From NCBI RefSeq assembly GCF_006540085.1, contig NZ_BJOG01000002.1:186001-250000 (forward strand): a DNA stretch of 64,000 bases. Direction: 5' to 3'. Under the pieces are notes generated by a model. It worked only from the letters and a program-made list of their open reading frames with translations, did no database searches and was not told the origin of the DNA. The position numbers and the translations under genes were made by a program. Positions 2,673-17,359 of this stretch are shown piece by piece (the stretch's first letter is position 1; every line of letters starts with the position of its first letter). This stretch comes from Microbacterium oxydans. Lineage in GTDB: Bacteria; Actinomycetota; Actinomycetes; Actinomycetales; Microbacteriaceae.

Positions 2673-4813
2673 CCGAGACAGTGGCATTCAAGGCGAACCC
2701 CTCCTACGAGGGTCTCGACTATCACGCCCTCAACGCGATGCTCAACCTGTACGACGCGAACGGGAAGATCCAGTTCGACGCCGACAAGCGCGCCGCGCGG
2801 GAGTACTTCCTGCAGCACGTGAACCAGAACACGGCGTTCTTCCACTCGCTCAAGGAGCGCCTGGACTACCTCGTGGAGAAGGAGTACTACGAGGGCGCCG
2901 TCATCGAGAAGTACTCGATGGAGTTCATCCAGAAGCTCAACGACCTCGCCTACGGCAAGAAGTTCCGCTTCGAGACGTTCCTCGGCGCGTTCAAGTACTA
3001 CACGAGCTACACGCTGAAGACGTTCGACGGCAAGCGCTACCTCGAGCGCTTCGAGGACCGCGTCGTCATGACCGCCCTCGGTCTCGCCGACGGCGACGAG
3101 AAGCTCGCCGTGGCCCTCGTCGAGGAGATCATCTCCGGTCGTTTCCAGCCGGCGACCCCCACCTTCCTCAACGCCGGCAAGGCGCAGCGCGGCGAGCTCG
3201 TCAGCTGCTTCCTCCTGCGCATCGAAGACAACATGGAGTCGATCGCCCGCGGCATCAACTCCGCGCTGCAGCTCTCCAAGCGCGGTGGCGGCGTCGCACT
3301 CCTGCTGTCGAACATCCGCGAGTCGGGTGCGCCGATCAAGCAGATCGAGAACCAGTCCTCGGGCATCATCCCGGTCATGAAGCTCCTCGAAGACAGCTTC
3401 AGCTACGCCAACCAGCTCGGTGCGCGTCAGGGCGCCGGCGCGGTGTACCTCAACGCGCACCACCCCGACATCATGCGCTTCCTCGACACCAAGCGTGAGA
3501 ACGCCGACGAGAAGATCCGCATCAAGACGCTGTCGCTGGGCGTCGTCGTGCCCGACATCACGTTCGAGCTCGCCAAGAACGACGAGGACATGTACCTGTT
3601 CTCGCCGTACGACGTCGAGAAGGTCTACGGCGTTCCGTTCGGCGACATCTCGGTCACCGAGAAGTACCGCGAGATGGTCGACGACCCGCGCATCAAGAAG
3701 ACCAAGATCAACGCGCGCGAGTTCTTCCAGACCGTCGCCGAGATCCAGTTCGAGTCCGGCTACCCGTACGTCATGTTCGAGGACACGGTGAACAAGGCCA
3801 ACCCGATCAAGGGTCGGATCAACATGTCCAACCTCTGCAGCGAGATCCTGCAGGTGAACACGCCGACCACGTACAACGACGACCTGTCGTACGACAACAT
3901 CGGCAAGGACATCTCCTGCAACCTCGGTTCGATGAACATCGCGCTGTCGATGGACGCCGACGACCTCGGCCAGACCGTCGAGACCGCGATCCGGGCACTG
4001 ACCGCGGTCAGCGACCAGAGCCACATCGGCTCGGTTCGTTCGATCGAGGACGGCAATGACCGCTCCCACGCCATCGGCCTGGGCCAGATGAACCTGCACG
4101 GCTACCTCGCTCGCGAGCACGTGTACTACGGCTCCGAAGAGGGCATCGACTTCACGAACATCTACTTCTACACGGTGCTGTTCCACGCGCTGCGCGCGTC
4201 GAACAAGCTCGCCATCGAGCGCGGCACGACGTTCGACGGGTTCGAGGACTCGACCTACGCGTCGGGGGAGTTCTTCGACAAGTACATCGACCGCGCCTGG
4301 GTTCCCGAGACCGAGAAGGTCAAGGAGCTGTTCGCCGGCAAGCACATCCCGACACAGGACGACTGGGCCGAGCTGAAGGCGTCGATCCAGAAGCACGGCA
4401 TCTACAACCAGAACCTGCAGGCGGTGCCGCCGACCGGCTCGATCTCGTACATCAACAACTCGACGTCGTCGATCCACCCGATCGCGTCGAAGATCGAGAT
4501 CCGCAAGGAAGGCAAGCTCGGCCGCGTCTACTACCCGGCGGCGTTCATGACGAACGACAACCTGGAGTACTACCAGGACGCGTACGAGATCGGCTACGAG
4601 AAGGTCATCGACACGTACGCCGCGGCGACGCAGCACGTCGACCAGGGCCTGTCGCTGACGCTGTTCTTCAAGGACACCGCCACCACGCGTGACATCAACA
4701 AGGCGCAGATCTACGCATGGCGCAAGGGCATCAAGACGATCTACTACATCCGCCTGCGTCAGCTGGCGCTCGAGGGCACCGACATGGCCGAGTGCGTCTC
4801 GTGCATGCTCTGA
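2669..4813 (+). CDS. nrdE: Class Ib ribonucleoside-diphosphate reductase alpha subunit NrdE
   Basis: A 714-residue catalytic subunit that reduces ribonucleoside diphosphates to deoxyribonucleotides. The family opening [17 protein letters not shown] follows within 20 residues of the GTG at 2669, which overlaps the nrdI stop; longer upstream frames run inside nrdI and are rejected. Visible signatures are the substrate cysteine region LVSCFLLR, the active-site N-x-C-x-E in [14 protein letters not shown], the central [20 protein letters not shown] stretch, and the C-terminal redox pair in ECVSCML that is reduced by NrdH. There is no long N-terminal ATP-cone, as expected for class Ib enzymes. Confidence 0.98.
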
Positions 4814-5954: not shown

Positions 5955-7055
5955 CTACGAGACCGCTGTCTCCCGAGCGGCACTCATCGCGCGCGCCACG
6001 GCTTCGAGGTCGTCGTCGAATAGGTCGGCGTAGACGTCGAGCGTCATGGCCGCGGAGGCATGGCCGAGCATGCGTTGCACGGCCTTCACCTGGGCACCGG
6101 ACGAGACGGCGAGGGACGCGGCCGTGTGGCGCAGGTCATGCGGCGTGATCGACGGGATGGTCGTGTCGACGGATTGAGCCTTCCTGACGGCCTTCACGAA
6201 CCAACCGCTGGTGGCGTGCGGGTAGGGGATCGGATCGGCACCGTCGCCGAACAAGAAGGCCTCCGGTCCCTTGTCTTCGCAGAGCCGTGCGATCGCCTTC
6301 ACGAGGTGCGGCGGGATGGGGATCTCTCGAGCGTGACCAGACTCCGGTGTGCCGATCTGATACCCGCCCTTCACGAGCACGGCGTTGTCCTCGATTCGGA
6401 TGCGCTTGCGCAGCATGTTGAGGTGCCGGACGCGGATCGCGACCGCCTCGCCCTATCTCGGTCCGGAGTACGCGAACAGCTCGATCAGAACGCGCGTCGT
6501 CTCATCGGCGGCGCTTTCTGACAGCTCCGCCACCTGCGCGTGGGTGAGATACCGGGGTGACTTGCGACGCTTCGCCGGCCGGGCGACGCCGACGGCAGGG
6601 TTCACGGGGATGGCGCGCTCACGCGTCGCGATCGCCAGCATGCCGGACAGCACGAACATGATCCGTCGCACGGTCTGCGCAGATCTGGTTTGGCTGAGTT
6701 CGGCGACCCACTCCGCGATCTCGGAGCGCTTGATGCCGGAGATTTCGCGCCCGGCCCATTTCGGTTCGACGTGTACACGCCAGGCCGTCTCCATCGCCTG
6801 CTGTGAGGATGGCTTGAGCGGAGCCAGGCGTTCGGCCTCCCACGCCCTGTGGAGCGTGTTGAGGAGCTTCCGGCTCTCGATCGGGTCCAGGTACTCGCCC
6901 TTCGCCTTCGAGACCGTCACGGAGGCCAGGAACAGGTCTGCTTCCTTCTTAGTGCGGAACCCGCGCTTGTCGGTTTGCGACTTGTCGGGCTTCCTGTACC
7001 GCACGCGGTACCGGCGACCCCGCGCCGTGTCGTAGGGCGTGATCGACCCGGCCAT
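5955..7055 (-). pseudogene. Tyrosine recombinase (phage-type integrase) interrupted by one in-frame TAG
   Basis: The frame encodes a 366-codon integrase. The N-terminal arm-binding part (about residues 8-60) and SAM-like core-binding domain (about 70-170) are followed by the catalytic domain with R (FAYSGPR), HDLRHT, LGHAS and the nucleophile tyrosine in LDVYADLF. The codon right after the first catalytic Arg is TAG at 6453-6455, where the family usually has Trp (RWGE); the frame then resumes with GEAVAIRVRHLN. There is no frameshift: a single TGG to TAG change explains it. The product is therefore probably split and inactive unless the amber codon is read through. Its ATG overlaps the stop of the upstream gene (TGATG), so it is the last gene of the island operon. 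Confidence 0.85.
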
Positions 7056-7606
7056 CAATTCCCGCCTTTGTCGCGCACCGCGTACCAGCGTCGGGCGATC
7101 GACTCGACTCGCTTCATCTCTCCGCGCACCCACCCGAGCGACTGGGCGGCCTTGAATACTCGCCACCACATCGACCCGTAGGTCGCTGCCTGCTCTGCCG
7201 TTGCCGTGCCGTCAACGGGTGCGATCGGAGGAAAACCATCCGGCACCCGTGAACGGACCCGGCCGGTTGTGCTGAGCCCCGCCGCTTGGCGAGCCATGTT
7301 CAGCCACGCGGCCTCGTCGGCCGCGGCGGACGCTGCCGCTTTGTCGATCTCGGCTGCTGACACGAGGCGCGTGACAGGCTTGAGTGCCATGCCGCGAGGT
7401 GGCGCCACGTCGACGGCGGCGACCACGGCGAATGCTGCGCGGCCGTCGCCCCCCGGGACAACAATGCGCGTGCCCACCGTGGGGGGCGTTGAGAGTGTCC
7501 ATTCGTAGACGTACGCGTGGTCAGCGTTCGGTGGTGTGCTCGTGGTGAGGTCGCGGAACGAGACGCTCACGAACCGCTGGCGGGCCTTGCGAGCGAACCA
7601 TCCCAT
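7055..7606 (-). CDS. Island protein of unknown function, 183 aa
   Basis: I do not recognise the family with certainty. Residues about 10-70 read like a small beta-domain (FVSVSFRDLTTSTPPN... VGTRIVVPGGDGRAAFAVVAAVD) that recalls the DNA-binding beta-domain at the N-terminus of PriA helicases. The middle (80-115) is Ala-rich and helical, and the C-terminus is basic with several Trp. It sits inside an operon whose four genes overlap by one base each, between the ImmA/IrrE gene and the integrase, so it probably serves the mobile element. The PriA resemblance is inference from pattern only. Confidence 0.7.
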   Translation of the reverse strand: MGWFARKARQRFVSVSFRDLTTSTPPNADHAYVYEWTLSTPPTVGTRIVVPGGDGRAAFAVVAAVDVAPPRGMALKPVTRLVSAAEIDKAAASAAADEAAWLNMARQAAGLSTTGRVRSRVPDGFPPIAPVDGTATAEQAATYGSMWWRVFKAAQSLGWVRGEMKRVESIARRWYAVRDKGGN

Positions 7607-8067
7607 CAGATGACCTCGACCTTCGCGTCGTACTCGCCGACGCCCATGCGTGGGCCGACGTACACGGCGCCGTCAACGCGCAGGAGAAGCCGGCGAAACA
7701 CCTCGACGAGGTCGGCTGTCACGTTGAGTGCGATCGCCATCGCCTCGACGTTGCCATCGTGGCGCGCCTCTTGACGGCGATACTCGTCGAGTCCGATCAT
7801 CTGCATTGCTGCCCACTCGTCTGCGCGTCGTTCCTGTTTCGCGTTCACTGGGCCGAACCGCGATCGGGTGTCGCCCCAGATCGCGTGGCAGCACTCGTGC
7901 GGGAGGGTCGAGCGGTACACGCGCGTTGACAGGTGGAACTGGATCCGGATGAGCTTCTCCTCGTGGATGTACTCGCCGTCGATGTCGTCCGGTAGTTCGC
8001 AGTACTCGATTCGTACGCCCAGCGCATCGATCATCTCGTAGATGCGCTTCAGCCTTGCGTCCTTCAT
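7606..8067 (-). CDS. ImmA/IrrE-family zinc metallopeptidase
   Basis: A 153-residue protein with the zinc motif HECCH (in STLPHECCHAIWGD, about residues 55-68) and the third-ligand region ERRADEWAAMQMIG, followed by the family helix DLVEVFRRLL. Proteins of this type cut the repressor of a mobile element or of a stress regulon after DNA damage. Unusually, the partner XRE repressor is not found next to it: the upstream gene has no clear helix-turn-helix. Its stop and start codons each overlap a neighbour by one base, so it is co-translated with the island operon. Confidence 0.88.
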   Translation of the reverse strand: MKDARLKRIYEMIDALGVRIEYCELPDDIDGEYIHEEKLIRIQFHLSTRVYRSTLPHECCHAIWGDTRSRFGPVNAKQERRADEWAAMQMIGLDEYRRQEARHDGNVEAMAIALNVTADLVEVFRRLLLRVDGAVYVGPRMGVGEYDAKVEVI

Positions 8068-8501
8068 CAGCTCTGCCCGTCGTCCCCTCCGCGGTCGCGA
8101 GACTTCTTCTTCGCAACCCTCGGTAGTTGAGTCTGGTCGGGAGCACGGACATCTTGCTCGCGTGATGCGCGTCGTGAGCTGAGATCGTCCGCGAGTGCGG
8201 CCGTATCCGACGCCATGGTGCCGGTGTAGTCGGCGACCACGCCGTAGAGCGGTTCGCCGTTATAGACACCAACGGGGCCGATCTTGCCCTCGAAGGCCCG
8301 GATCAGCGCGTCGGTGTCGACATCGGTCGGCGGGAGTCCCGGGCGCAGGCAACGAAGCTGGGCGGCCCCGAGCATCGCCGGATTACCCCGGCCTTCGCCG
8401 ATGTCGGCCACCCATCCGGTGAAGTCGTTGAGCAGCTCCATGCGCCGCTGCAGCTCGTTGAGTAGCGCGTCGGTCGAGACGGTATCAAGGTCTGCAGTCA
8501 T
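8067..8501 (-). CDS. Island hypothetical protein, 144 aa, first gene of the operon
   Basis: I do not recognise this protein. Residues 1-35 look like an amphipathic helix pair (DALLNELQRRMELLNDFTGWVADIG), the middle contains VYNGEPLYGVVADYTG, and the last 40 residues are charged and low-complexity (KKKSRDRGGDDGQ). It has no membrane segment and no obvious helix-turn-helix, but because it precedes an ImmA/IrrE peptidase by a one-base overlap it may be that protease's partner or target. The ATG at 8501 has only a weak ribosome binding site. Confidence 0.65.
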   Translation of the reverse strand: MTADLDTVSTDALLNELQRRMELLNDFTGWVADIGEGRGNPAMLGAAQLRCLRPGLPPTDVDTDALIRAFEGKIGPVGVYNGEPLYGVVADYTGTMASDTAALADDLSSRRASREQDVRAPDQTQLPRVAKKKSRDRGGDDGQS

Positions 8502-8621
8502 CGTGATCGTCAGGTCAAAGCGGAGTGAGCTCCAGGAAGACTACGAACACAGATGACCCCCACCCGGCCGATGGGCGAACTCCAGGAGTCGTTGCAACAC
8601 AACCTGCTCTGATCATATGAA

Positions 8622-8663
8622 GAGCGCCCGCTGTCAGCCGATCTGGCTGGGAGCGGGCGCTCT
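8622..8663. terminator. Hairpin between island operon and M15 peptidase
   Basis: AGAGCGCCCGCT pairs with AGCGGGCGCTCT (12-bp perfect stem, loop 18). It lies 26 bases past the stop of the minus-strand peptidase gene and would end its transcript before the island operon. The T-run is short on both sides. The remaining 8502-8621 sequence holds no gene I can support. Confidence 0.7.
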
Positions 8664-8689
8664 CTTGTCCATCGTTGGCGTTGATATGG

Positions 8690-9559
8690 TCAGGCCGTGG
8701 GGGCTCCGATGTACCCGGCGAGGAACGTGAAGGTATCCCACGTCACACCAGGAACTTGCGAAAGCTCCGGCAGCGGCATGATGTCCGTGGCTCCGAGGCC
8801 GCGCAGCGTGTTGACCTGCATGCGGAAATCGTTGTACTGCTGCTGACTAGCGAAGTCGGTCTTGCCCCCATATCGCAGGTGGACGACCGTGCCGTTGGGG
8901 ACCTTGACAATTGCTTCCACGTTGTTCTCCGTTGTTGTTGTCTCGGGCGGCGCGGTGTAGTCGCCCGTGTATTCCCAGTGCCATGCTTCGTCGGGCTTCC
9001 TCCCTCCGGGCTCTGCCCAATCTGGATGGATCCACCCCCATTGGCCGGCGTTCGCCTTCATCCAGAGGTAGATCGGATTCGTCCATCCATCGATAGGCAC
9101 ACCAATGTCGATGGCGACAGCCCAGCCGTGGTTCGACTCGCCAGGCACAGCTGCGTTCTCGCACTGGCGGCGGGCGCACCAATACTCGCGGGCTTTGACC
9201 TGGTTAGCGTAATCCCGGTAGCCATCTGAGAGGGGCAGGTCGCGCCCGAATTGCTTACGAAACTCGACGTTCAGAGCGACCAGCGCGGTTACCGCGTCGG
9301 TGCGCAGGTAGAGAGACGGCCTCCAAGGAATGGGAGTGAGCGCCGACAATGGTATTTCGCCATTCCGGTACGACCCCCAGTCGGCATGAGCGGGAGCCGT
9401 CTGCCCCGCAACCGGTCCCGCAGCAGCGACGAGGGCCGCGATAGCGGCTGCCGACAGAAACCGTCGTCGAGACAGTGGGGATGGTCGTGATGGTGATGGT
9501 TCCCCCGGAACGGCACCCGCGGTGGTGCCAGGCGGAGGTGCTCCGAGCGGTGTTGTCAT
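8690..9559 (-). CDS. Tat-exported M15-type peptidase (VanY/endolysin-like), 289 aa
   Basis: The N-terminus carries a twin-arginine signal (PLSRRRFLSAAAIAALVAAA) ending near AHA, so the mature enzyme starts about residue 60. The catalytic domain shows the zinc pattern of D-Ala-D-Ala carboxypeptidases and phage L-alanyl-D-Glu peptidases: SDGYRDY, SNHGWAVAIDIG (His and Asp ligands) and WHWEY (third ligand). A C-terminal segment of about 60 residues (NGTVVHLRYGGKTDF onward) resembles tails on actinophage lysins. It would cleave peptidoglycan stem peptides outside the membrane. The ATG at 9559 is chosen because it puts the signal peptide close to the N-terminus. Whether it is a former prophage lysin or a host wall enzyme is open. 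Confidence 0.85.
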   Translation of the reverse strand: MTTPLGAPPPGTTAGAVPGEPSPSRPSPLSRRRFLSAAAIAALVAAAGPVAGQTAPAHADWGSYRNGEIPLSALTPIPWRPSLYLRTDAVTALVALNVEFRKQFGRDLPLSDGYRDYANQVKAREYWCARRQCENAAVPGESNHGWAVAIDIGVPIDGWTNPIYLWMKANAGQWGWIHPDWAEPGGRKPDEAWHWEYTGDYTAPPETTTTENNVEAIVKVPNGTVVHLRYGGKTDFASQQQYNDFRMQVNTLRGLGATDIMPLPELSQVPGVTWDTFTFLAGYIGAPTA

Positions 9560-9648
9560 GAAGTCACCGTATCTGAGCCTGAACGTGACAAAGAAAATGA
9601 AAGGAGCCGCACACGAAGGGGTGAACTCCAGGTGCGTCCACCAGGTGG

Positions 9649-9824
9649 TCAAGCGACTCCGGCGATGAGCCTAGCGAGGCGCTTGGCTGGAGTTTCCCAA
9701 CCGAGCATCTTGCGGGGCCGGGTGTTGAGTTCGTGCGCGACTCGCTCGAGGTCTTCTCGGGTGTGTCCGGAGAGGTCAGTGTCTTTGGGGAAGTGCTGGC
9801 GCAGCAGGCCGTTGGTTGACTCTG
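9649..9824 (-). pseudogene. IS30-family transposase, C-terminal scrap
   Basis: The last 55 or so residues of an IS30-type transposase are readable: ESTNGLLRQHFPKDTDLSG, then ELNTRPRKMLGWETPAKRL. The region with the first two catalytic Asp residues is missing. Upstream homology stops at about 9815-9824, where the sequence changes abruptly to a serine hydrolase fragment on the other strand. This is a deletion scar, not a working insertion sequence. Confidence 0.8.
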
Positions 9825-9965
9825 CACAACGGGCAGACGGGAGGCTTCGCATCGTTCCCCGTCCTCGATCGTGAGGGCGGCCGGGGCACGATCGTGCTCT
9901 CCAACACCGCGGCCCAGCTTCCGGGGGTCGCTGTGAACCTCATCGAGAAGGGCATCACCGAATGA
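9822..9965 (+). pseudogene. Serine hydrolase (beta-lactamase-like), 3' stump
   Basis: About 47 codons encode the C-terminus of a class C beta-lactamase/serine hydrolase: HNGQTGGFASFPVLD, then GTIVLSNTA and VNLIEKGITE before the stop. The HNG-x-TGG motif is the third conserved box of the family; the catalytic SxxK box and everything before is gone, replaced by the IS30 scrap. The stop overlaps the ATG of the next gene (ATGA), which shows that the hydrolase once formed an operon with the small membrane protein. Confidence 0.8.
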
Positions 9966-12664: not shown

Positions 12665-12868
12665 GTGATCCTCAGCTTCCTCTTCTTCATGATCCTCTTC
12701 ATCGGAGGCATCCTGCTGATGGGCATCTCCTTCGGGCTGCCGGCATTCCAGGCGCTCGCCTTCTGCGGCGGTCTTCTGCTGGTGACGCTGGCGCTCGCCT
12801 TCATCTTCCGGCAGGGCGGTTCGGCCACTCGTCGCTCGAACAACTGGTCGGGCAACGCCACCGAGTAA
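12665..12868 (+). CDS. Small two-helix membrane protein, 67 aa
   Basis: A short protein with two membrane segments (about residues 2-22 and 28-47) and a polar tail (RQGGSATRRSNNWSGN). It uses a GTG start after AGGAGA at five bases. I do not recognise the family; small proteins of this build are common in Microbacteriaceae and often lie alone. It converges with the amino acid permease. Confidence 0.7.
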   Translation: MILSFLFFMILFIGGILLMGISFGLPAFQALAFCGGLLLVTLALAFIFRQGGSATRRSNNWSGNATE

Positions 12869-12887: not shown

Positions 12888-14462
12888 TCAGGGCTTCTTG
12901 CGCCGCAACGCCTCCGCTGCCTGGCGCCCGGCGACGACCGGCAGGACGCCGGTGAAGCCTTCCCGGGCCCGGGCAGCCTCGGCGATCTTGCCGCGCGCGG
13001 CGAACCATCCGATGACGAGTGCGGGGATGAGCAGCACGAGCGAGGCCAGCACCCAACGTCCGGTCTCGGAGAAGCCCATGGACACCAGCACGAACAGCAG
13101 GAACGCCAGGGTCAGGTAGCCCGTGTAGGGGGTTCCGAACATCCGGAACGATGGGCGTTCCACCAGTCCTCTCTTCGCGAGCGTGTGCATCTTCAGCTGA
13201 CACAGGATGATCGTCGCCCAGCCGCCGATGATGCCGATGGCCGAGACCTCCAGCACGATCTCGAAGGCCTGCGAGGGCCAGAGGGCATTGATGCCGACCC
13301 CGATCAGCGTGATCGAGGCGGTGAGGAGGATGCCGCCGAACGGGACGCCGTTCGCGCTCATCCTCGCCGTGAAGCGAGGCGCCGAGCCGTTGACGGACAT
13401 GGATCGCAGAATGCGACCAGTGGAGTAGAGGCCCGCATTGAGGCTGGAGAGCGCTGCGGTGAGGACGACGAAGTTCATGACCGACCCGGCGACCGCTCCG
13501 GTGTGCGGCGAGCCGATGTGGGAGAAGAAGGTGACGAAGGGCGACTCCCCAGCCTTGTATGTGTCGAACGGCAGCAGTAGCGAGAGCAACAGGATCGAGC
13601 CCACGTAGAAGACGGCGATCCGTACCACGACGGTGTTGATGGCCTTGGGCATGACCTTCGCGGGCTCTGAGGTTTCACCGGCGGCGGTGCCGACGAGTTC
13701 GATCGACGCGTACGCGAACACGACACCCGAGATGGCGAGTATCGGGGCGAAGTAGCCCATCGGGAACACACCGCCGTTGTCGGCGATGACGGCGATCCCG
13801 GTGACTCCGAGATCCGTGGTGCCGTTGAAGATGATGAAGCAGGTCCCGACCACGAGGAAGACGACCAGAGCGGTCACCTTGATCATCGCGAACCAGAACT
13901 CCATCTCGCCGAACAGCTTCACGCTGACCAGGTTGAGCGACAGCACGACGACCAGAGCGACGAGGGCGATGAGCCATTGGGGGACGGCCTGCAGCGGCTC
14001 CCAGTACTGCGCCCAGAACTTGACGTAGAGCGCTGCGGCCGTGACGTCGACGATCGAGGTCATCGCCCAGTTCAGGAAGTACAGCCACCCGCTCGCGAAC
14101 GCCAGCTTCTCACCGTAGAACTCTCGTGCGTACGAGACGAAGGAGCCCGAGGAAGGGCGGTGCAGCACGAGTTCGCCGAGCGCGCGGAGGATGAGGAACG
14201 CGAAGAAACCGCAGAGGGCGTAGACGAGGATGAGTGCAGGGCCGCTGGATGCGAGACGTGCGCCCGCACCCATGAACAGCCCCGTGCCGATCGCGCCGCC
14301 GATCGCGATCATCTGGATCTGGCGGGGCTTGAGGGTCTTGTGATACCCCGCCTCCTCGTTGGAGAAGTCTGCGACCGCGAGGGTGCGATCACCCGTGAGC
14401 TCACGCTCGTTCTCGCGTGCGTCTTCGGGATCGAGGGGGACGCGGGATGTGGGGTCGGCCAT
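12888..14462 (-). CDS. Amino acid permease of the APC superfamily (L-asparagine permease-like), 524 aa
   Basis: The AAT-family signature opens the first helix ([20 protein letters not shown], then [11 protein letters not shown]), and the consensus amphipathic part [20 protein letters not shown] follows. About 12 membrane helices are readable. The polar N-terminus of about 60 residues and the overall sequence recall AnsP-type asparagine permeases, but specificity within this family cannot be read reliably. The ATG at 14462 has GGAGAGG seven bases upstream; the longer frame to 14570 lacks such a site and begins with unlikely sequence. Transport is proton-coupled uptake through the cytoplasmic membrane. 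Confidence 0.9.
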
Positions 14463-14631
14463 GCGATACCTCTCCGGGCGAAGCGACGCGGACGCGATCT
14501 GCGCCCGACCTCCTGTGCGAATTCCTGCACAGGCTCCATGAATCATGGCGGCGATCGCGTTCGAGGACACGCATCTGGCGAGGATTCTCGCGCAAAGTAC
14601 CGGTATGGGATCCGGCGTCCCGATATCGACG

Positions 14632-15234
14632 TCAGCGTCGTCTGGCGAGTCTCGCCTCGAGGTTCGCCCTGACAGCAGGCCACTCCGGTTCGATGATCGA
14701 GTACTCCACGCTGTCGCGCAGCGCGCCGTTGCGGTAGCGGCTCATCGCCCGCATGACCCCGTCCTGCTTCGCGCCGAGGCGCTCGATCGCCGCCCGCGAC
14801 TGGAAGTTGACCCACTGCGTGGTGAGGCCGACGCGGAAGACTCCGAGGGACTCGAATGCGTGACGCAGCAGCAGCAGCTTGGACTCGGCGTTCGTGCCCG
14901 AGCCGTGCGCGGACGGTCGATTCCAGGTGAAGCCGATGTGCAGTCGGGGTACGTCGGCCACGATGTCGTAGTACGACGTGAGCCCGAGGATGCGACCGTT
15001 GGTGTCGAAGGCCGTGAAGGGGATCATCTCGCCCTTCTCGATGAGGCCGATCCGTCGCTCGACCTCCGCAGCCACGCCGTCGGGTGCGGGGACCGAGGTG
15101 TACCACGCCGTCTTCCAGAGCTCCCCCTCCTGCACGGCCTCGATCAGTCCGTCGATGTGCGATCGATCGAGAGGTCGGAGTTCCACGAGCTCGCCGGAGA
15201 GGGTGACGGGGGAGGGGGCGACGAGGAAGGCCAT
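14632..15234 (-). CDS. RimJ/RimL-type GNAT acetyltransferase, 200 aa
   Basis: The protein opens with [20 protein letters not shown], has the acetyl-CoA loop [19 protein letters not shown] and the motif [21 protein letters not shown] that is typical of the RimJ/RimL branch. It lies eight bases after the ImmA/IrrE gene on the same strand, and that gene follows an XRE regulator, so acetylation may be the output of a repressor/protease switch. The ATG at 15234 is preferred because longer frames read through the ImmA/IrrE gene. The acceptor is unknown. Confidence 0.88.
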
Positions 15235-15242
15235 GCCGATAT

Positions 15243-15635
15243 TCAACCAGCAGTGACGAGGGGCCTCTGACGCAGCAGGCGCTGGTAGGCCTCGACCAAC
15301 TCGATGGTGACGTCCAGCTCGAAGGCGAGACTCGCCAGGTGCGGCCCGCGCACCTCTTCCGCCTCGGCATACGCCCGCGGCGTGATCAGGCGGGACGCCG
15401 CCCATTCGTCGGCCTGACGCTCCTGCTGCGTTCGTGTGGCCGATGTCGTCGCGGGGAAATGGCCGAGGCAGGCGTGCCCCAGCTCATGGGCGAGCACACT
15501 GCGGGTCGTGCGGGCGCTCATCCCCGGAGCGAGGCGGATCGTGCGGGTGGTGGGGTCGTAGCCCCCGCGGGTGCGGCCGGGCCGCTCGACCACGCGCACC
15601 CGCTGCGCGTCGGCGAGGTGGAGGAGCTGGTGCAT
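15243..15635 (-). CDS. ImmA/IrrE-family zinc peptidase, 130 aa
   Basis: The zinc motif HELGH is in VLAHELGHACLGHFP (about residues 49-63) and ERQADEWAASRLITP supplies the third ligand; IELVEAYQRLL closes the domain. Known members cut a partner XRE repressor. The XRE gene lies 44 bases upstream on the same strand, and the acetyltransferase eight bases downstream, so the three look co-transcribed. It is not closely similar to the island ImmA/IrrE at 7606-8067, so this is an independent copy. Confidence 0.9.
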   Translation of the reverse strand: MHQLLHLADAQRVRVVERPGRTRGGYDPTTRTIRLAPGMSARTTRSVLAHELGHACLGHFPATTSATRTQQERQADEWAASRLITPRAYAEAEEVRGPHLASLAFELDVTIELVEAYQRLLRQRPLVTAG

Positions 15636-15679
15636 TCTCTCCTCCTCGTGACGTCTCGCGGGCGGAAGCCGGTATCGGC

Positions 15680-16066
15680 CTACTCGTAGAGGTCGTCGGT
15701 GTCGGCGTCGTGCCGGACGCCGGATTCGAAGGCGACCTCACGGCTATCTTCGCGGGGGCCGGCGACATCGGGGGTGCGCCAGATCGGCGTGATGCGCGCT
15801 GTGGTCTCGCCGTCGGCTCTGAGGCGCTCTTCCGCGCGGGCGAGCAGGACATGGGGCTCGACGCCGAGGTCGGCGCAGACCGCGTAGACGACGGGTACCG
15901 GGATCGCTCGCTTGCCCGTCACGTAGTTGTCGAGTGCACTTCGGGCGATGCCGATGCTGCGCGCCATCGCGGCGATGCTGCTCCGCGAGGCGGCGATCTC
16001 CGCGCGCATCTGGCGACCCACGGCCTCGTTGAACTCCTCTGCAGGTGTCTTCACCCGGCTCACCAT
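15680..16066 (-). CDS. XRE-type helix-turn-helix regulator, 128 aa
   Basis: The helix-turn-helix is SIAAMARSIGIARSALDNYVTGKRAIPVPVVYAVCADLG within residues 30-70, followed by a polar tail that could be the protease target. It is the likely repressor partner of the ImmA/IrrE peptidase 44 bases downstream. A perfect inverted repeat lies 15 bases before its ATG, in the gap shared with the divergent small XRE gene, so it probably represses both directions. The ATG at 16066 fits the domain start; the frame stays open to 16117 across the operator, which argues against the longer form. Confidence 0.87.
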   Translation of the reverse strand: MVSRVKTPAEEFNEAVGRQMRAEIAASRSSIAAMARSIGIARSALDNYVTGKRAIPVPVVYAVCADLGVEPHVLLARAEERLRADGETTARITPIWRTPDVAGPREDSREVAFESGVRHDADTDDLYE

Positions 16067-16080
16067 AGCAGCGTGACGAC

Positions 16081-16102
16081 GCCAGAATGCCGCCATTCTG
16101 GC
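16081..16102. promoter_or_regulatory. Perfect inverted-repeat operator of the XRE/ImmA locus
   Basis: GCCAGAATG, four bases (CCGC), then CATTCTGGC: 9-bp perfect arms. It lies between the divergent XRE genes, 15 bases ahead of one start and 35 bases ahead of the -10 box (TAGTGT, 16137-16142) of the other. XRE repressors bind such sites as dimers. Confidence 0.75.
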
Positions 16103-16148
16103 CCATTCGACCCCCATGCGTGTCCGTTCGTGGCGCTAGTGTAGGCGT

Positions 16149-16379
16149 ATGGGGACGGAATTGCGTCATTTGCTGGCATCGGAAGTCGACGGAGCACGGT
16201 TTCACGCCGGGGTGTCCTTTTCTGAGCTGTCGGAGCGTTCGGGTATCGGCCCTGACGCCCTGGGGGAGCTTCTCGACGGCAGGGAGGACTTCACCGTCGT
16301 CGACCTCGTGCGTATCGCCGATGTGCTCGGCATCCCGGTCACCGCGCTTCTTCCGGGAGCGGCAGGCGACGACTCGTGA
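16149..16379 (+). CDS. Small XRE-type helix-turn-helix protein, 76 aa
   Basis: Nearly the whole protein is one helix-turn-helix domain: VSFSELSERSGIGPDALGEL is the DNA-binding part and VDLVRIADVLGIPVTALLP the closing helix. It is transcribed away from the larger XRE regulator over the shared operator, an arrangement like the repressor/anti-repressor pairs of phages. TAGTGT lies six bases before the ATG, so the message is probably leaderless. Confidence 0.82.
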   Translation: MGTELRHLLASEVDGARFHAGVSFSELSERSGIGPDALGELLDGREDFTVVDLVRIADVLGIPVTALLPGAAGDDS

Positions 16380-16429
16380 CGGTTGCTGTGCCGGACCGCC
16401 GTGTCCGTGCCTGGCGATAGCGTGGGGGC

Positions 16430-17359
16430 ATGAAGACAGTGTCGTTCGGATCGTCCACCGCCCCCGCCGTGATCGCCGGCATGATGCGCATCGACGACAA
16501 GGATGACGCGCACATCCGCCACCTCTACGACACGACCAGGGCTGCGGGCATCGACTTCTTCGACCATGCGGACATCTACGGCGGCAGCATGCACCACTGC
16601 GAGTCGCGGTTCGCCGAGGCGCTGCAGCTGACCTCTTCCGAGCGCGACGAGATCGTGCTGCAGACGAAATGCGGCATCGTGCCCTCGCAGGGGATGTTCG
16701 ACTTCTCCTACGAGCACATCGTGGCCCAGGTCGAGGGTTCGCTCGCTGCTCTGCGGACCGACCGCCTCGATGTGCTCCTGCTCCACCGCCCCGATGCGCT
16801 CGTCGAGCCCGAGGAGGTCGCCCGCGCGTTCGATGACCTGGAGAGCGCGGGAAAGGTCAGGGCGTTCGGCGTCTCGAACCACACCCCGCGTCAGATCGAT
16901 CTGCTCCGCACCGCAGTCCGGCAGCCGCTGGTGGCGAATCAGCTCCAGCTGTCGATCACGCACGCACCGATCATCGCGCAGCCGGTCGCTGCCAACATGG
17001 CCGGCCATGACCAGAGCCTGGTGCGCGATGGCGGCGGCATCGTGGAGTACTGCCGTATCAACGGGATCACGATCCAGGCATGGTCGCCGTTTCAGGACGG
17101 CTTCTCGCACGGGGTGTTCCTCGGCAACCCCGCCTACGCGGAGCTGAACGCCGTGATCGATCGCCTCGCGGCGGTGCACGACGTCACCCCGATCGCCATC
17201 GCGACCGCCTGGATCACCCGCCACCCCGCCGGCATGCAGGTGGTCCTCGGAACCACGACGCCCGAGCGGGTGCGTGATGCGGCAGCCGGTGCCGATGTCG
17301 CGCTCACCCGACCCGAGTGGTACGAACTGTTCCGTGCCGGCGGACACCTGCTTCCGTAG
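16430..17359 (+). CDS. Aldo/keto reductase (YdhF-like), 309 aa
   Basis: A TIM-barrel oxidoreductase using NADPH. The catalytic tetrad is visible: Asp and Tyr in FFDHADIYGGSMHHCE, Lys in IVLQTKCGI and His in LDVLLLHRPDAL. The coenzyme end is VVLGTTTPERVRDAA. Length and layout match the YdhF group of E. coli, whose substrate is unknown. TAGCGT sits six bases before the ATG (leaderless). It stands alone between the small XRE gene and a small membrane protein. Confidence 0.9.
   Translation: MKTVSFGSSTAPAVIAGMMRIDDKDDAHIRHLYDTTRAAGIDFFDHADIYGGSMHHCESRFAEALQLTSSERDEIVLQTKCGIVPSQGMFDFSYEHIVAQVEGSLAALRTDRLDVLLLHRPDALVEPEEVARAFDDLESAGKVRAFGVSNHTPRQIDLLRTAVRQPLVANQLQLSITHAPIIAQPVAANMAGHDQSLVRDGGGIVEYCRINGITIQAWSPFQDGFSHGVFLGNPAYAELNAVIDRLAAVHDVTPIAIATAWITRHPAGMQVVLGTTTPERVRDAAAGADVALTRPEWYELFRAGGHLLP

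Follow-up and report, generated by a model that had tools for sequence, protein, structure and literature searches.

Why would a bacterial chromosome keep what looks like the immunity switch of a mobile element, and what would such a switch control there? The question is raised by a 64,000-nucleotide stretch of Microbacterium oxydans (contig NZ_BJOG01000002.1, positions 186,001 to 250,000), referred to below as the window. In it, a repressor gene of the XRE family (XRE) is followed by a gene for an ImmA/IrrE-type metallopeptidase (ImmA), and a small helix-turn-helix (HTH) gene (mini-XRE) runs the opposite way across an inverted repeat. The explanation that we regard as probable is that this trio is a domesticated immunity switch of a phage or integrative element, which entered the divergent region between a GNAT acetyltransferase gene and an aldo/keto-reductase (AKR) gene in the ancestor of one subclade, has been inherited vertically since then, and regulates transcription in the manner proposed below.

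Gene content and chromosomal position

The original prediction for this locus listed XRE, ImmA, and GNAT in line, a divergent 76-residue XRE protein, and a perfect 9-4-9 inverted repeat, and this observation is confirmed as a whole: the open reading frames (ORFs) lie where they had been placed, with XRE, ImmA, and GNAT on the reverse strand and mini-XRE on the forward strand (Table 1). The AKR gene, however, was absent from that gene set, although mini-XRE points at it from 50 bp away. Families were assigned by the curated Pfam cut-offs, which XRE and mini-XRE pass narrowly (HTH_3, 23.8 bits with a cut-off of 23, and HTH_31, 27.6 bits with a cut-off of 27, respectively); the values for ImmA and GNAT are 45.2 bits for Peptidase_M78 (cut-off 22) and 54.7 bits for Acetyltransf_3 (cut-off 25.4). 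The AlphaFold model of XRE, made from an alignment of 16 rows, consists of a confident five-helix head and a low-confidence tail. The structure search does not discriminate, since the HTH domains of XRE and mini-XRE each resemble a large number of XRE folds, among them C.BclI and ClgR. The arrangement is that of ImmR-ImmA systems, in which an M78 peptidase gene with HExxH comes directly after the gene of an XRE repressor, and it also has the small divergent single-HTH gene of CI/Cro or CI/Mor pairs.

Distribution was studied in 119 congeneric genomes and in a named genome collection that yielded 33 loci; the two sets overlap. An XRE orthologue is present in 16 of the 119 genomes (E <=2.2e-42, the next match having 4.4e-10), and all 16 have the divergent mini-XRE beside XRE, ImmA after XRE, and GNAT after ImmA. 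A search with mini-XRE itself also gives weak matches in many other genomes, to general XRE genes. All 33 XRE loci of the named collection belong to Microbacterium or Microbacteriaceae, the scan being based on peptide patterns and thus reaching close relatives only. Every one of them has the order AKR, XRE, ImmA, GNAT (with the AKR match of L129 in two pieces) and keeps HExxH in ImmA. Mini-XRE is found by tblastn in 30 of the 33, and an open frame of 60-115 residues occupies its place in all 33 and in the window (34/34). In G002 the start codon of mini-XRE is out of frame with the remaining gene (L064, about 6401-6410), and an internal TTG may serve instead.

The trio lies between GNAT and AKR in 15/15 fetched loci as well as in the window. 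GNAT orthologues (at least 76% identity) occur in 26 genomes, 10 of which have no trio; in 6 of these 10, GNAT and AKR are divergent neighbours separated by 34-52 bp, and in the other 4 AKR is elsewhere or was not seen. With the GNAT and AKR start codons 1195 bp apart in the window, the undivided arrangement of the trio-less relatives indicates that the cassette lies where two resident genes, divergent from each other, have their promoters. The unit is therefore the XRE-ImmA|mini-XRE trio, not four genes. As for the earlier expectation that the genes would keep together in relatives, it holds for the trio wherever an XRE orthologue was found, and not for GNAT. A second GNAT copy, 92% identical to that of the window, is carried by G076 on a 5-kb contig without the trio (L078, 2903-3502).

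Resident genes flank the trio in all 33 named and all 15 fetched loci, in contrast to ImmR-ImmA pairs on a mobile element with an integrase. At the level of the family, the XRE profile matched 11 of 299 genomes at E 1e-8; 9 of them are outside the genus, where the matches cover the head only (at most 98/125 positions, best E 8e-24) and no trio was seen. The ImmA profile matched 16 of the 299 genomes at E 1e-15, and plasmid relatives gave 3 ImmA matches, all below 60% identity.

On a tree built from four flanking proteins of 26 genomes, GNAT and AKR among them, the presence of the trio changes state 2 times, the mean for shuffled states being 8.2, which would most simply correspond to one gain and one loss (in G014). 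The supported clades of the XRE and ImmA tree are, by eye, compatible with this flank tree, which suggests vertical descent of the trio. Median ratios of nonsynonymous to synonymous substitution (dN/dS) between the window and 12 relatives are 0.12, 0.20, and 0.21 for XRE, ImmA, and mini-XRE, respectively, and 0.08-0.18 for six flanking genes. Taken together, the tree pattern and the low dN/dS values indicate that the trio is inherited and under selection.

Operator and control region

The inverted repeat between the divergent genes is perfect, as had been stated, and is interpreted here as a putative operator. Five other inverted repeats were listed within 14000-17000, some of them longer but imperfect. 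When the 82-bp gap from the in-frame ATG of XRE to the mini-XRE start is shuffled with dinucleotides preserved, 10 of 5000 sequences contain a perfect repeat (arms of at least 9 bp, loop 0-10); the window as a whole holds 25 such repeats. Across 34 loci the consensus on the XRE strand is CCAnnATGnCRGCATnnTGG, and operator columns average 1.45 bits, versus 0.61 and 0.93 in the flanking spacers, over loci that are related and thus not independent. The operator axis is also the best dyad of all axes in these related loci (0.70 paired; mean 0.26, standard deviation 0.08). The distance between the XRE and mini-XRE starts and the spacing from start to operator are nearly fixed. Thus, the putative operator lies in the divergent promoter region between the repressor and the opposed gene, as in ImmR-ImmA systems.

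Within the window's genome the exact repeat occurs once, with one more place at 3 mismatches, and the relaxed operator (at most 1 mismatch) gives just one further place. A genome-wide regulon was accordingly rejected for this genome, which has a single good site and not the several genome-wide copies expected of a DdrO-IrrE system. The start of GNAT was also considered as a second XRE site and dropped: ATG-N4-CAT occurs there in 8/16 trio loci and 6/10 trio-less loci, and not in the window.

The longest XRE ORF, starting at 16117, would extend over the repeat. An in-frame ATG stands at 16066, but 7 of 15 other loci do not have it, which makes the GTG at 16054, downstream of the repeat, the favoured start. 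The probable −10 boxes, read by eye without a promoter tool, have the consensus TATSGT before the XRE start and TAnTGT before the mini-XRE start. From their positions (Table 1) we infer that both mRNAs are leaderless. On that reading, the operator would cover the −35 region of XRE and lie just upstream of the mini-XRE promoter. The string RTGAAGACA opens both XRE (16046-16054, reverse strand) and AKR (16430-16438, forward strand), and in some species also mini-XRE (16149-16157, forward strand), each of these gene starts directly following a TAnnnT box.

Origin of the trio

According to its relatives, the trio has an element background. Of 13 further ImmA loci of the genus, 12 have a repressor ahead of ImmA and an integrase behind it (by eye; element integrases were profile-checked only in the window, L157, and L117), and phages of Microbacterium and Corynebacterium carry repressor, ImmA, and integrase together. 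The viral contig L157 shares the ImmA type and the repressor tail: its ImmA has 59% identity to that of the window and 64-67% to the best trio ImmAs, and its repressor joins a different head to the tail EVAFESDLPHEQDTDDLYDA, the window having EVAFESGVRHDADTDDLYE. A phage-type integrase follows ImmA in L157, with a RecE-like exonuclease gene nearby. Elsewhere in the family, relatives of mini-XRE are divergent to XRE genes in L117, L118, L119, and L121 (profile E 7e-14 to 4e-18, against those four sequences only); in L117 an integrase stands right behind XRE, with no ImmA between. Judged by its sequence, the trio is derived from phage or integrative-element immunity modules. The original interpretation is thus partly supported: the layout of an element immunity switch stands, but its toxin-antitoxin suggestion and its statement that no integrase or phage genes are nearby do not. 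For the latter, the window holds an interrupted tyrosine-integrase gene and a second ImmA gene (5955-8067), about 6-9 kb from GNAT.

Covariation of repressor tails with ImmA

Covariation between repressor and ImmA was assessed in 34 pairs, one of them a trio representative added to the set; three of the 36 initial loci were left out, L175 as a duplicate of L092, and L177 and L179 because the repressor or ImmA had not been assigned. Repressor starts were set by eye, not always at an ATG, and three ImmA stretches (L099, L165, and L162) were shortened manually. Pairs with more similar tails tend to have more similar ImmAs (Spearman 0.35; permutation p 0.001, the lowest value attainable with 1000 permutations; kinship ignored). 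Head similarity, in contrast, does not covary with ImmA similarity in the same pairs (rho −0.03, p 0.68). The trio head is closest to heads found in pairs with a differing tail and ImmA (L164 and L166), and one head type (L089, L097, and L099) is combined with two tail/ImmA classes. This suggests that the repressor tail is the part recognised by its partner ImmA. A second strong tail class, DDGGx(P/E)E(F/Y)PNG, occurs on different heads in six XRE-ImmA pairs of one other genus, g18 (L165, L167, L170, L172, L178, and L180).

In ImmR of ICEBs1, a protein of 127 residues with a five-helix head, the cut falls at F95-M96 in the loose C-terminal part (PMC8960796; here and below, published systems are described from the parts of the cited papers that were available). 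A wider and more tentative proposal, which we hold to be possible but would not favour, is that actinobacterial ImmA repressors are modular, with an exchangeable DNA-binding head and, at the C-terminus, a short address tag that fits its own ImmA and moves together with it; the trio would then be one captured set, with a Mor-like and not a Cro-like mini-XRE. Such a head/tail/protease mosaic would be a simple, testable rule for ImmA-repressor matching, and, if true, a tag of about 20-30 residues could serve to predict the partners of many actinobacterial ImmAs, or to re-pair them in laboratory strains. To our knowledge, the repressor recognised by a given ImmA has been established in only a few models, among them ICEBs1 and Deinococcus. 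A literature search, largely outside subscription papers, found nothing on this locus or on tail-ImmA matching.

Proposed mechanism and its weaknesses

In the favoured explanation, XRE would bind the dyad, limiting its own transcription and setting that of mini-XRE. ImmA would recognise the conserved C-terminal tail of XRE and cut it, removing XRE, as ImmA does to ImmR. Mini-XRE would counteract XRE, acting either on DNA like Cro or through pairing with XRE like Mor. The outputs would be the two divergent transcripts themselves, possibly with read-through to AKR on the right and to GNAT on the left. Such read-through is plausible given the short gaps: GNAT begins 4-42 bp after the ImmA stop, in the same direction, in 16/16 genomes (8 bp in the window), and AKR begins 10-50 bp after mini-XRE in 15/16 trio genomes (G116 not included). 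As for the inducing signal, a stress-triggered switch is possible; single-stranded DNA activates PprI, which is related to ImmA (PMC10904395), and in M. oxydans R1 a prophage with an ImmA gene is induced by mitomycin C (PMC9030533).

The recognition helices differ between the two DNA-binding proteins. In XRE this helix is invariant (majority frequency 1.00 over 34 loci); in mini-XRE it is more variable than any other segment (0.50, versus 0.53-0.58 for helices 1-2 and 0.75 for helix 4). This favours action of mini-XRE by protein contact, as in Mor, over Cro-like action on a shared operator, a reading that is weakened by the small gap between the recognition helix and helices 1-2.

Several observations weigh against the favoured explanation. 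The difference between the helices means that an operator common to both proteins, as in CI/Cro, is probably absent. Perfect dyad pairing is seen in few species, the symmetry being broken at inner positions, and there is one good site in the window's genome versus the six bound by ImmR in ICEBs1 (PMC8960796). Most trio ImmAs do not have the C-terminal segment typical of element ImmAs, which is kept in 3/16, so their activity might be altered. Two gains may have occurred instead of a gain and a loss. The tail adjoins ImmA in the DNA and the pairs are related, so part of the covariation may reflect linkage or kinship. Finally, GNAT and AKR keep promoter-like motifs in many loci (TTGAAT before the GNAT start in 15/16 loci with the trio and 7/10 without it; TAnnGT before AKR in 16/16 trio loci and 5/8 trio-less loci having AKR), and the switch may therefore regulate itself only.

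Alternative explanations

Superinfection immunity would make the neighbours irrelevant, since XRE would serve to silence incoming phages or elements with the same operator. The descent of the trio from immunity modules agrees with this, as does the one good operator in the window's genome, which speaks against a wide host regulon. However, the operator with the arms of the window was found in one IMG/VR contig only, where it occurs twice (arms of other species were not sought). This 76-kb contig, L158, has the copies inside a repeated stretch (3284-3303 and 4131-4150) and was judged unrelated by eye, so superimmunity via the same viral operator was dropped as a candidate. The viral relative L157, moreover, has a different DNA-binding head, and among 50,697 phage records 13 match, none of which covers 80% of XRE (33-41% among the matches listed). 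We therefore consider superinfection immunity unlikely. Somewhat less likely still is the explanation of the original prediction, a stress-triggered host regulator with the GNAT acetyltransferase as main output. The position of GNAT, close behind ImmA in the 16 genomes and after ImmA in the same direction also in the 33 named loci, is in its favour, but GNAT orthologues exist without the trio in 10 of 26 genomes, the TTGAAT motif precedes GNAT with and without the trio, and AKR, across the trio, is just as well placed to be the output. The acetylation output is thus unproven, with its location supporting it and its independent occurrence and own motif opposing it.

Acetyltransferase toxins exist, and the original prediction had also suggested a module resembling toxin-antitoxin systems, with GNAT as toxin; alternatively, XRE and ImmA could form an addiction pair. 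Contrary to the type II rule that a toxin comes with its antitoxin, GNAT persists without XRE, the putative antitoxin, in 10/26 genomes. It is under strong purifying selection (median dN/dS 0.08), and PADLOC gives no match for GNAT (at E 0.001) or AKR. Addiction is further opposed by the absence of the trio inside the clade, in G014. Pairs of XRE and COG2856 genes were indeed once predicted to be toxin-antitoxin systems (PMC2701414), but a toxin-antitoxin role is not supported here and appears very improbable. A neutral prophage relic with no present function would agree with the element origin, with the shortened ImmA C-terminus of most species, and with the out-of-frame mini-XRE start codon in L064. 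It is, however, hardly compatible with three genes that stay open over 34 loci at the dN/dS values given above, with an invariant XRE recognition helix and a conserved operator, and we give it the least credence of all.

Relation to known systems

The closest published parallel found is a Listeria locus with mtz-tim, in which CI-like and Cro-like XRE genes of phage or mobile origin are kept in a clade without the phage, next to adjacent genes (PMC8235301). According to that source, however, the Listeria locus is without ImmA, and its adjacent pair is itself mobile in origin, in contrast to the resident GNAT and AKR genes. ImmR-ImmA of ICEBs1, TnSmu1, SaPI3, and phages resembles the trio in three respects: an XRE protein of about 127 residues whose head consists of five helices, an antirepressor of the M78 metallopeptidase type encoded after it, and a divergent promoter that faces the pair (PMC8960796, PMC10233336). 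The trio differs in that neither integrase nor transfer genes adjoin it, in its single operator where ICEBs1 has six, and in its fixed place at one chromosomal locus over many species.

CI/Mor of TP901-1 and phi13 likewise has a small HTH protein divergent from the repressor (PMC7250872), and Mor of TP901-1 has an HTH but is unable to bind DNA by itself; it works through binding to CI (PMC11149083). No ImmA is described for CI/Mor in the available parts of these two papers, whereas the trio has one, and a Mor-like action of mini-XRE is a prediction from sequence. In DdrO-IrrE/PprI of Deinococcus, an M78 protease stimulated by single-stranded DNA inactivates an XRE repressor, but DdrO needs a folded C-terminal domain for dimers and controls many genes (PMC10904395), in contrast to the low-confidence predicted tail and one operator here. 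CapH-CapP of CBASS (cyclic-oligonucleotide-based anti-phage signalling system) is also a switch of repressor and metallopeptidase (PMC10233336), and PADLOC reports a weak capP profile match (E 4.6e-5). No CBASS genes, however, were identified in the flanks of the trio, where the neighbours are AKR and GNAT.

Compared with these systems, the locus would be a clear-cut example of a regulatory switch of phage type that bacteria have retained in the absence of the phage, at one site in 33/33 named loci, with the entry point visible from relatives that have an undivided GNAT-AKR region.

Other features of the window

Coordinates of all features are collected in Table 1. The integrase and second ImmA genes mentioned above belong to the remnant of another integrative element, which looks like an element separate from the trio. 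A link between the two is not favoured, as the trio has the same flanks in the 33 named loci, where the remnant was not searched for.

Table 1. Features of the trio locus and of the remnant element, in window coordinates
Feature	Position	Strand	Basis
GNAT acetyltransferase; resident gene, cassette flank, outside the trio	14632..15234	-	ORF, Pfam
TTGAAT, promoter-like motif before GNAT, overlapping the ImmA stop codon	15241..15246	-	
ImmA/IrrE-type (M78) metallopeptidase, HExxH at residues 50-54	15243..15635	-	ORF, Pfam
XRE repressor, five-helix HTH domain and probably flexible tail ending EVAFESGVRHDADTDDLYE	15680..16066	-	ORF, Pfam, AlphaFold
XRE start options	ATG 16066, or favoured GTG 16054 (124 aa)		
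TATGGT, probable extended −10 box of XRE, 7 nt before GTG 16054	16062..16067	-	sequence comparison, by eye
Putative operator, perfect 9-4-9 dyad GCCAGAATG-CCGC-CATTCTGGC	16081..16102	.	repeat search, 34-locus comparison
TAGTGT, probable −10 box of mini-XRE, 6 nt before its ATG	16137..16142	+	sequence comparison, by eye
Mini-XRE, consisting of one HTH domain and divergent from XRE; position and size as in Cro or Mor	16149..16379	+	ORF, Pfam
TAGCGT, promoter-like motif before AKR	16418..16423	+	
Aldo/keto-reductase (AKR); resident gene, in line with mini-XRE	16430..17359	+	ORF, Pfam
Remnant of second integrative element	5955-9852	-	
Remnant: interrupted tyrosine-integrase gene, two frames	5955-6416, 6453-7169	-	profile
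Remnant: second ImmA gene	7606-8067	-	
Remnant: gene just upstream of second ImmA, ending in SRDRGGDDGQS tail	8067-8501	-	
Remnant: gene with partial tail-protein profile match	8690-9652	-	
Remnant: presumably a transposase fragment	9649-9852	-	

On the far side of GNAT, between it and a small gene at 12665, the window carries an amino-acid permease gene (12888-14570, reverse strand); among the 33 named loci only L124 has it too, L155 ending short of this place.

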